Source of the DNA: Planctomycetia bacterium
GTDB lineage: Bacteria > Planctomycetota > Planctomycetia > Pirellulales > PNKZ01
Reading direction: 5' to 3'
Assembly: GCA_021413845.1 (NCBI GenBank)
Contig: JAIOPP010000148.1
Coordinates: 1 to 64,000, forward strand
DNA length: 64,000 nucleotides
This document shows positions 25,938 to 31,764 of this stretch, piece by piece. Positions within the stretch are counted from its first letter, which is position 1; each line of letters starts with the position of its first letter. The notes under the pieces are model-generated. The model made no database searches, was not told where the DNA came from, and saw only the letters and a program-made list of their open reading frames with translations. A program made the translations under genes and the position numbers.

Positions 25938-26627
25938 CTAGATGACGTCGCGAAAGCTCGTCAGGCCGACCGTCTCGCGGCAAGTAAACGGCTCGCCGTA
26001 TTTCACGTTGATCGACCAACCCCAATACGCGGCTTGGTCGCGCAAGCGGTCGATCATCGTCGGCGGCTCGGTCGAGCGACCGGTGATGAACTGGCTCTCG
26101 AAGCAACGAATCGCGGCGAGCTTTTGCTCCCAAAACTCCGAGATATCGACGACGAACGCCGGCTTCTCGACGACGCGCAGATGGACGCAGTTGTAATGGA
26201 AGATCCGCTCCGGATGATGCGGCGTACCGGGCAAATCGGTCTTCGAGAGCTTCGCCCAAAATCGGGCCGCTTCGATTAAGTCGAGCGCAGCAACATGATC
26301 CGGATGGGCATCGACCCAATACGGGGCGAAGAGCCAACGGGGCTTGAGTTCGCGGATCACGCCGGCAAGTTTTCCGCGCGCTTCCAGCGTGGCTTCGAGC
26401 TTCCGATTCGGCAGCCCGAGGTTGCCGCGCCAATCGACCCCTAAGATCGCGGTCGCGGCCGCCGTTTCGCGTGCTCGGATTTCCGGGCTGCCGTGAGGGG
26501 TCGGTTCGCCGTCGGTCAGGTCGAGAATGCCGATGCTCCGGCCTTCGGCTTTGAACTTCAAAATGGTGCCGGCCATGCCGAGTTCGGCGTCGTCCGGATG
26601 AGGGGCGATGACGAGAGCGTCGAGCAC
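25938..26627 (-). CDS. PIG-L family N-acetylglucosaminyl deacetylase (BshB1-like)
   Basis: A 229-residue protein. I chose the GTG at 26627 because AGGGAG lies 7 bases upstream and the family motif follows directly: VIAPHPDDAELG (His10, Asp12 and Asp13) gives the zinc site, and AHPDHVAALD supplies the second His. DGEPTPHGSPEIRARET and GLPNRKLEATLEARGKLAGV are typical of the BshB1 subgroup of bacillithiol biosynthesis. The neighbours do not include bshA or bshC, so the substrate is uncertain: bacillithiol precursor or another N-acetylglucosaminyl compound. Confidence 0.9.
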   Translation of the reverse strand: MLDALVIAPHPDDAELGMAGTILKFKAEGRSIGILDLTDGEPTPHGSPEIRARETAAATAILGVDWRGNLGLPNRKLEATLEARGKLAGVIRELKPRWLFAPYWVDAHPDHVAALDLIEAARFWAKLSKTDLPGTPHHPERIFHYNCVHLRVVEKPAFVVDISEFWEQKLAAIRCFESQFITGRSTEPPTMIDRLRDQAAYWGWSINVKYGEPFTCRETVGLTSFRDVI

Positions 26628-26791
26628 GAGAAGTCTCCCTAATTGGCAGGCAAACGAACAGCGGACTCTAACATCATTGCCGGCGACCGACCATTCATCA
26701 ACTGCCCTAGACGCGTTGCGCGGTTTTTGCGAGATTCCCGCCGCCGATTCTTCGGCAGACCCTCGAGCACCGACCCACACCCGAAGTTTCC

Positions 26792-27315: not shown

Positions 27316-30072
27316 ATGCCCGACTTCGACTTCTTAAAGCAGGCCGCCGAACCTAAGTCTTCCAAGCCTGAAGAAGCCTCCGGCAAGCAGCCGATCGCCG
27401 CCGCAGAGCAAGAGCCTGCGTTCGACTTCGGGAACCTCGACACGAGCGCGCAAGCAGCGAAGTCGTCGGCGCCCGCGACCACGGAAGTCGTCGAAAGCAA
27501 CGGCGCCACGCAAGACTTCACGCTCGCTTTCGGCTCCGAAGAAGCCGGCGCCGGCGATCCGGAACTGATCACCGGCAACGGCCCGACCTCGGAACCTCCG
27601 GCCGATGCGGAAATGCCGTTTGATTTTGCCGCCGACGCGAAAGCGGAAACGCCCGCCGACGATCCCTTGGCCGACGCGCTCACCGAGATGGGTGCGGAAG
27701 CGGCTCCGGCTGCGATGTTCGATGCGCTGCCGGATATGTCGACCGACACCACCGGCGCACTGAGCGACGACGTACCCGATGCTCCTTCGCCGACCGACGC
27801 CGAAAGCGTGCCGTGGAGCACGGCCGAAACTTCGGCTTCCGACGCGCCTGCGAAGAACGGCCTCGAAAGCGAAGAGTGGAACACGCTCGATGAAAACAAT
27901 AATGCCGACGAACCGAAGTCGGACGACGAGATCGACATCTCTCCTCCCCCCGGCACCGATCCTCAACTCATCGCGGCGATGCTCGGCGGAGCGATGGGCG
28001 TGTCGCTCTTAAGCCCTGCGACTCCGACCGCAACCGAGCCGCCGCCGGTTCCCGAGATCGAAGAAGAGCCGCTCCCTGCAGCGCCCGACACGACCGATGC
28101 CGCCTTCCCCGCTTATGAAGAGCTCACGCGCCACGTTCGGCAAACGTCCCTCCTTGGCTCGATCGAAGCGGTGCTCGGCTGGGACGAACGCTGCATGATG
28201 CCCGCGGCCGGTACCGACCAACGGGCCGAACAAATCACGCTCCTCTCCGGCATTATTCACGAGCGGCTCACCGATCCGCGCGTCGGCGACTGGCTCGAGC
28301 AACTGAAAGACAGCCCTTTAGGGGCCGATCCGTATAGCGAAGCCGGCGCGACGCTCCGTCAGATCCGTCGCCAATATGAAAAGCGGACGAAGCTGCCGAA
28401 GACGCTCGTCGAAGAACTCGCGCACACCGCGGTCGTGGGCCAGCATACTTGGCAAGAGGCACGTAAGAACGACGACTTCGCTTCGTTTGCGCCCCTCTTG
28501 GAAAAGATGGTGCATCTGAAGCGCCAACAAGCCGAAGCGCTCGGCTATGCCGAAGTTCCATACGACGCGCTGCTCGACGAGTTCGAGCAAGGCGAGCTGA
28601 CCTCACGGTTGACGAAGATCCTCGGCGCGCTGCGCGACGAATTGGTGCCGCTCGTGGCCCAGGTGCGCGAGAGCGGTCGGGCTCCCGATATCGGCCTGCT
28701 CGAACGGAGCTATCCCGTCGATCTCCAACGCTCGTTCGGCCGGAGCGCCGCGCAGAAAGTCGGCTTCGATTTCCATCGCGGCCGGCTCGACGTTACCGCG
28801 CACCCGTTCTGCACGGGCCTCGGCCCGAACGATTGCCGCATCACGACCCGCTACGACGAAAACTTCTTCAACGGCGGCTTCTTCGGTATTCTGCATGAAG
28901 CCGGCCACGGAATCTACGACCAAGGCCTGCGCGCCGATCAATACGGCCTCCCGCTCGGCGAAGCGGTTTCGATGGGCATCCATGAGTCGCAGTCTCGCAT
29001 GTGGGAGATCATGGTCGGCCGGGGCTTGCCGTTCTGGAAATACCTTTACGGCTCCGCGCGACAAACCTTCAAGACCGCCTTGGCCGGCGTGCCGCTCGGT
29101 CGCTTCTACGGCGCGATCAACGACGTTCGCCCTTCACTCATTCGAGTCGAGGCCGATGAGTTCACGTACAACTTGCACATCTTGATTCGCTTCGAGCTCG
29201 AGCAAGCGCTCATCTCCGGCGATCTTCAAGTCGTCGACTTGCCGAGCGCTTGGAACGAAAAATATCGCGACTATCTCGGCATCCAAGTCCCGTCGAACGC
29301 TGACGGCGTGCTGCAAGACATCCATTGGAGCGCAGGGCTGTTCGGCTACTTCCCGACCTACTCGCTCGGCAATCTCTACGCGGCGCAATTCTACGAACAA
29401 GCCGACAAAGACCTCGGCGGACTCGACGCGCAGTTCGAGCGCGGCGACTTCCAACATCTCGGCAAGTGGCTCAAGACGAAGATCCACACGCACGGCCAGC
29501 GTTATACGGCCGCCGAGCTCGCCGAGCGCATCACCGGCAAGCCGCTCTCGCATGAGCCGCTGCTGAAGCACTTGCGCTCCAAGTACGACTTGCTCTACAA
29601 TCCCGCTTCCCCCTCGATCGACGAATGGGACGTTCCGGACGGCGGCCTGCTGACTTCGACCGACGACGAGCCCGCCGGCGGGGTCGCGATGGACGACGTC
29701 GGCGATGTCGGCGGCTACGGTCTCGCCCGCGATTCCGGCTTCGACGGCATGAGCGTCGGCCCCGGCACCGCTTCGCTTTCCGGTGCGTCGGTCGGCGCGG
29801 GAAGCATGGGTGGAAGTTATTCCACGACTATGCCGCGGCGGAAGAAAGCCTCGATGCTCGGCACAGTCATGGTGCTCGGCGGCATCGTAGTCGGCGGCGT
29901 GCTAGGAATCGCGCTCGGCTTGTGGATTCTGCTTTACTTGAAAGGCCCGCAAGGAGACATTCTCAAGGTTCGCGACAAGCTTCCGGAGTGGATCGTGCCG
30001 GAATGGAAAGAGCCGAGCGGCGCCTCGAATCCGATGTTCGATCGCTCCCGATCGGAAGCTCCCAAGGCATAA
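27316..30072 (+). CDS. M32 (carboxypeptidase Taq) metallopeptidase with acidic N-terminus and C-terminal membrane anchor
   Basis: A 918-residue protein, nearly twice the usual M32 length of about 500. Residues 1-260 are acidic, low-complexity and Ala/Asp/Glu/Pro rich (DFDFLKQAAEPKSSKPEEAS). Residues about 265-757 are a full M32 domain: YEELTRHVRQTSLLGSIEAV, the zinc motif HEAGH at 527-531, and HESQS at 556-560 providing the third ligand E557. Residues 758-846 are Gly/Ser rich, and one transmembrane helix lies at about 847-875 (VMVLGGIVVGGVLGIALGLW). The last 40 residues are polar. M32 enzymes are normally soluble zinc carboxypeptidases, so the membrane anchoring is unusual. One uninterrupted frame runs through all parts. 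Confidence 0.9.
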   Translation: MPDFDFLKQAAEPKSSKPEEASGKQPIAAAEQEPAFDFGNLDTSAQAAKSSAPATTEVVESNGATQDFTLAFGSEEAGAGDPELITGNGPTSEPPADAEMPFDFAADAKAETPADDPLADALTEMGAEAAPAAMFDALPDMSTDTTGALSDDVPDAPSPTDAESVPWSTAETSASDAPAKNGLESEEWNTLDENNNADEPKSDDEIDISPPPGTDPQLIAAMLGGAMGVSLLSPATPTATEPPPVPEIEEEPLPAAPDTTDAAFPAYEELTRHVRQTSLLGSIEAVLGWDERCMMPAAGTDQRAEQITLLSGIIHERLTDPRVGDWLEQLKDSPLGADPYSEAGATLRQIRRQYEKRTKLPKTLVEELAHTAVVGQHTWQEARKNDDFASFAPLLEKMVHLKRQQAEALGYAEVPYDALLDEFEQGELTSRLTKILGALRDELVPLVAQVRESGRAPDIGLLERSYPVDLQRSFGRSAAQKVGFDFHRGRLDVTAHPFCTGLGPNDCRITTRYDENFFNGGFFGILHEAGHGIYDQGLRADQYGLPLGEAVSMGIHESQSRMWEIMVGRGLPFWKYLYGSARQTFKTALAGVPLGRFYGAINDVRPSLIRVEADEFTYNLHILIRFELEQALISGDLQVVDLPSAWNEKYRDYLGIQVPSNADGVLQDIHWSAGLFGYFPTYSLGNLYAAQFYEQADKDLGGLDAQFERGDFQHLGKWLKTKIHTHGQRYTAAELAERITGKPLSHEPLLKHLRSKYDLLYNPASPSIDEWDVPDGGLLTSTDDEPAGGVAMDDVGDVGGYGLARDSGFDGMSVGPGTASLSGASVGAGSMGGSYSTTMPRRKKASMLGTVMVLGGIVVGGVLGIALGLWILLYLKGPQGDILKVRDKLPEWIVPEWKEPSGASNPMFDRSRSEAPKA

Positions 30073-30132: not shown

Positions 30133-31764
30133 ATGCTGCTCGACGACTCTCCCCCTTCACCGTCGCGACGCACCGAAACATCGGATCTGACGACGCTTTC
30201 CGCGGTCGAGCTGGTCCGCGCGCAACGCGCCGGCCGGCTCTCGGCCGAGCAAATTCTCGACGCGTATCTAAGCCGTATTCAAGAGTTCAACGGCAGCCGC
30301 AACGCGATCATCTGCCCGCTCTACGACGAGGCACGCGAAACGGCGCGCCGGCTCGATGCCGACCGCGCGCAAGGAATTTCGCTCGGCCCTTTGGCCGGCG
30401 TGCCGATCACGATCAAAGAGTCGTTCGAGATCCTCGGCACCGCTTCGACCATCGGCATGGCGCGGCGCAAGAATCGCCTCGCGACTTCCGAAGGCCCGGT
30501 CGTGCGGCAGCTGCGCGAAGCCGGCGCCGTGATCGTCGGCAAGACGAACGTGCCGCAAATGATGCTGAGCAACGACACCGACAACCGCGTGTACGGTCGC
30601 ACGCCGCATCCTTTTCGCGAAGACCGCGGGCCGGGCGGCAGCAGCGGCGGCGAAGCTTCGGCCGTCGCGTCGCGATTCTCCGCGCTCGGTCTCGGCAGCG
30701 ACCTGCTCGGCAGCATCCGTCAGCCGGCGCATGCGTGCGGCGTACATGGCTTCAAGCCGACGATGCCGCGCTACTCGATGATGGGAGGCGTGAATGCGCT
30801 CGGCGGTCTGGAAGCGATCATGGTTCAGCCGGGCCCGCTCGGCCGCCACGTCGGCGACCTGATCGCCTTTTTGGAAGTGTTGTCGAACGTCGATCCCGCC
30901 ACGCACCACGACGTTCACCATCACGGGGGCGACCCGTTCGCCGTTCCCGCCGTTTGGCGCGATCCGCGGCAAGTCGAGATCCGGGGCTTGCGCGTCGGCG
31001 TGTGGGACGATGATCCGGTGTTCACTCCATCGCCCGGCATTCGGCGCGTCGTGCGCGAAGCGGCCGAGGCCTTGGCGCGCCTAGGCGCCGAAATCGTGCC
31101 GTTCGTTCCCGCCGAAACCGAAAACGTCTTACGGCTTTGCCTCGCGCTCATCTCCGCCAGCGGCAACCGCAACGTGCGGCGCTTGCTCGACGGCGAGCGG
31201 CCGATTCCCAACGTGGCCCGCACGCTCCGTGTCTGGGGAATGCCGGGCTGGCAACGCAAAATGGTGTCGGGCTACTACGATGCCATCGGCGAGACTTGGC
31301 GCGCGAAGCTCGTGCGCTGGTGCCGCGCCGGGAGCGCTTCCGACTATTGGGATCTCGTGCAAGAGCGCAAGGAATACGTGCGCCGCGCGACCTTGGATCT
31401 GAACCAACGGAAGATCGACGTCGTACTCGCCCCTCCCAACGGCTTGCCGGCCCTGCTCCACGACACTACTTCCGAGGCCATTCCGGCCGGCGTTTTCGCT
31501 TACTTCCCAAACCTGCTGGGGCTCCCCTCCGGCACCGTGGCGGCCTCGCGCATTCGTGCGGGGGAAGAATCGACGCGAACCGACGCGAGGGAGTCGCTCG
31601 GTGCGACCGCGCGGCGGATCGAACTCGGCAGCGCAGGTCTTCCGATCGGCGTGCAAGTGGCCGCGAGACTCTGGCGCGACGACGTCTGCCTCGCCGTAAT
31701 GGAAGCCCTCGAACGGCACTTCGCCGCACAGCCCGACTATCCGCTCGCCGTGAACAGTCGATAG
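30133..31764 (+). CDS. Amidase signature family enzyme
   Basis: A 543-residue cytoplasmic enzyme. Amidase-signature landmarks are GVPITIKESFEI (catalytic Lys), GPGGSSGGEASAVASR (cis-Ser loop) and GLGSDLLGSIRQPAHACG (nucleophile Ser). In the last motif the usual GG before the nucleophile is LG. The family hydrolyses amides, often as aryl or alkyl acylamidases or in GatA-like roles. No GatB or GatC lies adjacent, so it is probably a stand-alone amidohydrolase. The substrate is unknown. Confidence 0.88.
   Translation: MLLDDSPPSPSRRTETSDLTTLSAVELVRAQRAGRLSAEQILDAYLSRIQEFNGSRNAIICPLYDEARETARRLDADRAQGISLGPLAGVPITIKESFEILGTASTIGMARRKNRLATSEGPVVRQLREAGAVIVGKTNVPQMMLSNDTDNRVYGRTPHPFREDRGPGGSSGGEASAVASRFSALGLGSDLLGSIRQPAHACGVHGFKPTMPRYSMMGGVNALGGLEAIMVQPGPLGRHVGDLIAFLEVLSNVDPATHHDVHHHGGDPFAVPAVWRDPRQVEIRGLRVGVWDDDPVFTPSPGIRRVVREAAEALARLGAEIVPFVPAETENVLRLCLALISASGNRNVRRLLDGERPIPNVARTLRVWGMPGWQRKMVSGYYDAIGETWRAKLVRWCRAGSASDYWDLVQERKEYVRRATLDLNQRKIDVVLAPPNGLPALLHDTTSEAIPAGVFAYFPNLLGLPSGTVAASRIRAGEESTRTDARESLGATARRIELGSAGLPIGVQVAARLWRDDVCLAVMEALERHFAAQPDYPLAVNSR

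Follow-up and report, generated by a model that had tools for sequence, protein, structure and literature searches.

Characterised M32 carboxypeptidases are stand-alone enzymes some 500 residues long. What they do in bacterial cells is poorly defined. Among those with a solved structure are the Thermus-type thermostable carboxypeptidase 1 (PDB 3hoa, 5wvu), the Bacillus subtilis enzyme (3hq2) and 1k9x, all of which are stand-alone proteins of 489–510 residues. In ACE2, a catalytic carboxypeptidase domain is followed by a C-terminal single transmembrane (TM) anchor. M32 enzymes resemble ACE2, a member of family M2, in their structure (PMC7044196). One M32 enzyme that has been described is probably a homodimer, a state said to be frequent in the family (PMC7918520). 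No literature on planctomycete M32 enzymes was found with the search terms tried.

The gene described here is located in a window of 64,000 nucleotides, the whole stretch of DNA analysed, on contig C148 of a Pirellulales genome (G000). Its product shares with the solved enzymes named above the catalytic domain and the metal and substrate motifs but carries in addition an N-terminal arm of 262 residues and a C-terminal extension of 157 residues (linker, TM helix and tail). As a 'Rosetta stone', the fusion of an M32 enzyme with a conserved neighbouring membrane protein hints at the enzyme's place of action and its partners, and it offers the first hypothesis open to testing for a zinc-ribbon membrane protein specific to the order, for which Pfam and NCBIfam have no family name.

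Results

One uninterrupted frame of 918 codons specifies, in this order, an acidic arm, an M32 carboxypeptidase, an acidic Gly/Ser-rich linker, one TM helix and a short tail (Table 1), and the first-pass annotation, which had listed these parts, described them correctly throughout. The same architecture is present in three further genomes of the genus (G001–G003; proteins of 905, 938 and 976 amino acids), so that it is found in all four genomes available for the genus; the named relatives of the fusion are Pirellula sp. and Planctomycetaceae MAGs. Pairwise dN/dS values among the fusion genes, which are rough since synonymous divergence is high, amount to 0.08–0.15 for the M32 core, 0.22–0.43 for the N-terminal arm and 0.26–0.44 for the C-terminal part (linker, TM helix and tail). 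The arm and the C-terminal part are under purifying selection.

Table 1. Features of the fusion locus (window positions; residue numbers refer to the fusion protein)
Feature	Position	Strand	Basis
Divergent PIG-L type deacetylase gene, conserved upstream neighbour of M32	25938..26780	-	name from sequence
Whole fusion gene, 918 aa	27316..30072	+	ORF with ATG start, single frame, no internal stop
Acidic, predicted disordered N-terminal arm, residues 1-262	27316..28101	+	composition, AlphaFold2, alignment
Hydrophobic patch in arm, about residues 216-232, LIAAMLGGAMGVSLLSP; relatives IAAIVGGAMGVALVAP	27961..28011	+	hydropathy, alignment
M32 carboxypeptidase domain, residues 270-757	28123..29586	+	Pfam PF02074, sequence matches to solved structures, pLDDT
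HEAGH zinc-binding and catalytic motif, residues 527-531	28894..28908	+	sequence, alignment
E557 (in HESQ 556-559), expected third metal ligand	28984..28986	+	alignment; role established for M32 enzymes
Acidic Gly/Ser-rich linker, residues 762-838	29599..29829	+	composition, alignment
Basic cluster RRKK, residues 841-844, directly before TM helix; positive-inside signal	29836..29847	+	sequence
TM helix, residues 847-876, glycine-zipper type GGIVVGGVLGIALG, homologous to ZnR-TM family	29854..29943	+	homology, hydropathy, AlphaFold2
Juxtamembrane motif KGPQGDILKVRDKLPEWIVP, residues 876-895, corresponding to family motif GPxxDFLxxxxKLPxWMxP	29941..30000	+	alignment
Variable polar tail, residues 896-918	30001..30069	+	little constraint; disordered in model
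Amidase-like gene downstream, sometimes a conserved neighbour	30133..31764	+	name from sequence

The central domain matches Pfam family PF02074 end to end (profile positions 2–489 of 489; 591.8 bits against a cut-off of 25.1; E 1e-177), and Peptidase_M32 is the sole Pfam domain found in the fusion protein. The earlier claim of a full M32 domain with HEAGH and E557 is thereby upheld; E557 is presumably the third metal ligand, a role we take from established knowledge of M32 enzymes. In the AlphaFold2 model the core has pLDDT values mostly above 90, and sequence matches to solved M32 chains reach 514 bits, the best solved relatives being thermostable M32 carboxypeptidase. No second M32 gene was found in the window genome. 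In addition to HEAGH and HESQ, the protein contains HPF (496–498), DCRIT (506–510; DxRxT), IRVEAD (609–614; IRxxAD) and GVLQDIHW (664–671; GxxQDxHW). Because all motifs of the published M32 list (HPF, DxRxT, HExxH, HESQ, IRxxAD, GxxQDxHW; PMC7918520) are present, the fusion protein is likely to be catalytically active. Given the homodimers of the family, the anchored enzyme may form dimers that are tethered twice.

Acidic residues predominate in the N-terminal arm (56 D/E versus 8 K/R), which consists to 53% of P, T, S, A and G and contains no cysteine in any of the four fusions; nearly all of residues 1–233 have a pLDDT below 50. Kept within the genus are the islands MPDFDFL, DDP[LV]ADAL, DTT[GA]A[LV]S[DE]D and EEPLP[AP]APD, and DFDFL occurs seven times across the four arms, a number reached by 0 of 2000 composition shuffles. 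These conserved DFDFL islands could be docking motifs, and the repeats would be compatible with a putative recruitment of partners by the arm. The hydrophobic patch has a mean hydropathy of 1.63–1.90 in the three relatives and lies below the threshold of 1.6 in the window protein, where the model contains a helix of 8 residues only. In the arm of G003 (L081:6001-8928), an acidic block of about 90 residues (DDPLADALSEL...DTTG.VSDD) is present twice in comparison with the other species, and evolution of the arm therefore proceeds partly by internal duplication.

Outside the fusions, no source of the arm in another gene was found in 57 relatives at E <0.01. Similarity to it was detected in the fusion genus only, and the sister genus represented by G006 has a comparable acidic arm. 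The arm occupies what elsewhere is a short intergenic region between M32 and the divergent PIG-L type gene: the distance from PIG-L to the M32 core is 1485–1650 bases in the fusion genus, 110–615 in most relatives and 2143 in one. The arm is a clade-restricted addition at the N-terminus.

The linker consists to 58% of P, T, S, A and G, has 12 acidic residues and 1 basic residue, and includes a conserved GGVAM.D.GDVGGY...GFDGM; its likeness to the linker of the neighbour protein starts near residue 799. Hydropathy analysis yielded one TM segment in the window protein (mean 2.47), and the corresponding block of residues 847–876 has pLDDT values of 53–87, mostly 69–87 and 78–87 in mid-helix. Basic residues are also found on the C-terminal side of the helix (K876, K884, R886, K888). 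Inspection of the sequence revealed no signal peptide.

The C-terminal part matches, with E values down to 1e-12, separate proteins of other genera which we call ZnR-TM, a name coined here for the family defined by alignment A1. They consist of an N-terminal CxxC...CPxC zinc ribbon, a variable and often acidic linker, RRxK, one TM helix (GGxxG) and, after the helix, GPxxDFLxxxxKLPxWMxP, to which some members add a C-terminal globular region. Fusion and ZnR-TM proteins share the acidic linker, RRxK, the glycine-zipper TM helix and the motif that follows it, the latter being present in four of four fusions. By contrast, the fusion has lost CxxC...CPxC: a 12-member ZnR-TM profile matches it (E 2.1e-17) starting at position 138 of 486, and the zinc ribbon is therefore missing. 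It also lacks the C-terminal globular domain, as does the ZnR-TM protein of G005, a genome of the same family. As judged by these alignments, the C-terminus of the fusion is homologous to the TM half of ZnR-TM only, and the protein is not a full member of the family. A separate ZnR-TM gene was not found in the window genome. At E <1e-10, ZnR-TM was detected in this order only among 294 sampled genomes of the phylum. Neither Pfam nor NCBIfam returned a family for ZnR-TM at cut-off; weak zinc-ribbon resemblances lay below it. Many ZnR-TM proteins (L039, L042–L044) also carry another cysteine-rich segment and, at the C-terminus, a conserved globular region that ends in PQVVWGGLP. Pfam and NCBIfam gave no family assignment for this region, which both G005 and the fusion lack.

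Most of the order has an ordinary M32 protein of about 500 residues, often with a same-strand ZnR-TM gene downstream. Among the matches listed, ZnR-TM is located directly 3' of M32 on the same strand in 50 of the 56 genomes that have both on one contig (46 of 52 without the four fusion genomes), with 72–2699 bases between match ends in adjacent pairs; in 32 further genomes among these matches the two are on different contigs. G005 has M32 and ZnR-TM as two genes, the arrangement expected of a precursor of the fusion. In the M32 tree, the four fused proteins and that of G006 form one clade (support 100/99); the G006 protein has the acidic arm, and its C-terminus is missing at a contig end. A candidate for this missing part was rejected, the best TM match adjoining a tgt-like gene and being a different protein. 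Likewise, a match in G007 that extends past M32 to query residue 853 turned out to be the next gene, of another family. Another unnamed conserved gene, encoding about 345–365 amino acids (YLLFGLSLPERALRTG...), is found downstream of M32 in several families (L033:1741-2778, L037:831-1928, L051:4966-6009). Among the matches listed, ZnR-TM also occurs in genomes where M32 is absent or a very weak match (G048, G450, G024, G040 (family f19); further G022, G025, G055, G513 and G481), and it thus has a role apart from M32 in some lineages.

Conservation of arm and anchor in M32 proteins of many phyla, which the first-pass annotation had considered, was not observed: neither is present in the retrieved M32 proteins of other phyla. 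M32 proteins of Paenibacillus, other Firmicutes, a bathyarchaeon, a bacteriovoracacean and also of distant planctomycetes extend at most 13 residues past the core. A wider survey of 392 genomes of the phylum and 196 of the order, in which long M32 frames fetched from among the matches listed were judged by composition and start position, produced further candidates (G371, G372, G100, G269, G415, G020, G418, G265, G499, G554, G562, G546, G538, G570, G511 and G514) that were dismissed, as their extra length looks like open frame upstream of the true start codon. Unlike the arm, their N-terminal extensions are basic or near-neutral (that of G371 is rather acidic); in most of them an ATG lies no more than about 20 codons from the core, and C-terminal extensions do not exceed 7 residues. 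Among the matches listed and fetched, the architecture is restricted to this genus, and the arm is also present in one sister genus.

Discussion

The genus-level gene fusion is real, and there is good evidence for the source of its anchor, which by sequence corresponds to the TM half of the adjacent downstream gene's product. We consider it probable (roughly 0.7) that an M32 gene was joined to the 3' half of ZnR-TM, giving an active zinc exopeptidase with an anchor in the inner membrane. The joining would have occurred in frame with the downstream neighbour, whose zinc ribbon would have been lost in the process, and the acidic disordered arm would have been gained in the short divergent intergenic region. 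That two genes were fused by an assembly or sequencing error could be suspected from the MAG-type nature of the assemblies, and such an error had been raised with the initial description; its probability is virtually nil because four separately assembled genomes have the identical architecture and the signature of purifying selection spans the whole frame. The earlier suggestion that the M32 core was inserted into a host protein, that is, a pre-existing protein with acidic arm and TM helix, was not supported. Although arm and C-terminal part flank the core, and in ZnR-TM proteins, too, the TM helix is preceded by an acidic linker, these proteins normally start with a zinc ribbon, which the fusion lacks, and their genes sit 3' of M32. 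Moreover, the arm has no detectable match to ZnR-TM, nor outside the M32 fusions in 57 relatives (E <0.01), and it was not found together with the anchor in any protein devoid of M32. Separate neighbours in G005, the 3' position of ZnR-TM and the single M32 clade thus argue for end-to-end joining, and insertion is very improbable.

In the first-pass annotation, the fusion was proposed to create a membrane-tethered peptidase. Comparative genomics bears out the fusion; the tethering, like membrane insertion, topology and activity of the protein, we infer from sequence features. The single C-terminal helix would tie the zinc exopeptidase to the inner membrane, with arm, enzyme and linker facing the cytoplasm and the last 40 or so residues the periplasm. 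Because a signal peptide is lacking and RRKK directly precedes the helix, the positive-inside rule places the M32 side most likely on the cytoplasmic face, an argument of moderate strength, given that the helix is followed by basic residues as well. In a two-pass topology, the hydrophobic patch of the arm would cross the membrane as well and the M32 domain would lie outside the cytoplasm. The patch is indeed conserved in the genus with a hydropathy of 1.6–1.9 in three species, but it spans only about 16 residues, includes conserved Gly/Pro, is less hydrophobic in the window protein and is predicted to form a helix of only 8 residues; RRKK would, in addition, end up outside. We regard such a topology as improbable. 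It is also conceivable that the fusion is functionally neutral, with loss of a stop codon in an old syntenic pair and an anchor that passively carries a cytosolic enzyme. Conservation of the divergent PIG-L gene as a neighbour, which makes the whole segment syntenic, and the occurrence of ZnR-TM without M32 in some genomes are in line with this. However, four divergent species have retained the TM helix, the juxtamembrane motif and the linker islands, and dN/dS is mostly below 0.5, which makes neutrality the less likely reading.

With the M32 domain predicted to face the cytoplasm, the enzyme would trim peptides or protein tails from their C-terminal ends at the membrane; imported peptides or fragments from membrane-protein turnover are guesses at its substrates. 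The layout, a carboxypeptidase followed by a C-terminal single TM anchor, is like that of ACE2. By contrast, the catalytic domain of ACE2 is extracellular and the protein has a signal peptide, and the two layouts are of independent origin.

Fusion in one genus and conserved adjacency in others form a Rosetta-stone pattern, which suggests that M32 and ZnR-TM may act together or interact where they are separate, as in other Pirellulales. The suggestion is tempered because PIG-L is also a conserved neighbour, so that part of the adjacency may reflect general synteny, and because several genomes (for example G048, G450, G022 and G513) have ZnR-TM but yielded no M32. Tentatively, we speculate that ZnR-TM might be a dedicated membrane dock for M32 across the Pirellulales, binding the enzyme non-covalently via its zinc ribbon or linker, and that the ribbon was lost once covalent linkage had made docking needless. 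If so, membrane-associated M32 processing would be a general trait of the order.

Very large FHA-domain proteins encoded in all four genomes share the DFDFL motif with the arm (L154:1917-7040 on contig C137 of G000, L153:2188-6477 in G001, L155:3018-7436 in G002 and L152:4114-8475 in G003). They comprise 1429–1707 amino acids with an N-terminal FHA domain (Pfam run on G000 and G003), a long acidic low-complexity body and a conserved C-terminus, [ED]L[AD]DFLRDLG[MI]N; many FDFL-type repeats are present in those of G001–G003. In G003, the gene is located near a trigger-factor-like gene and a ClpP-like gene.
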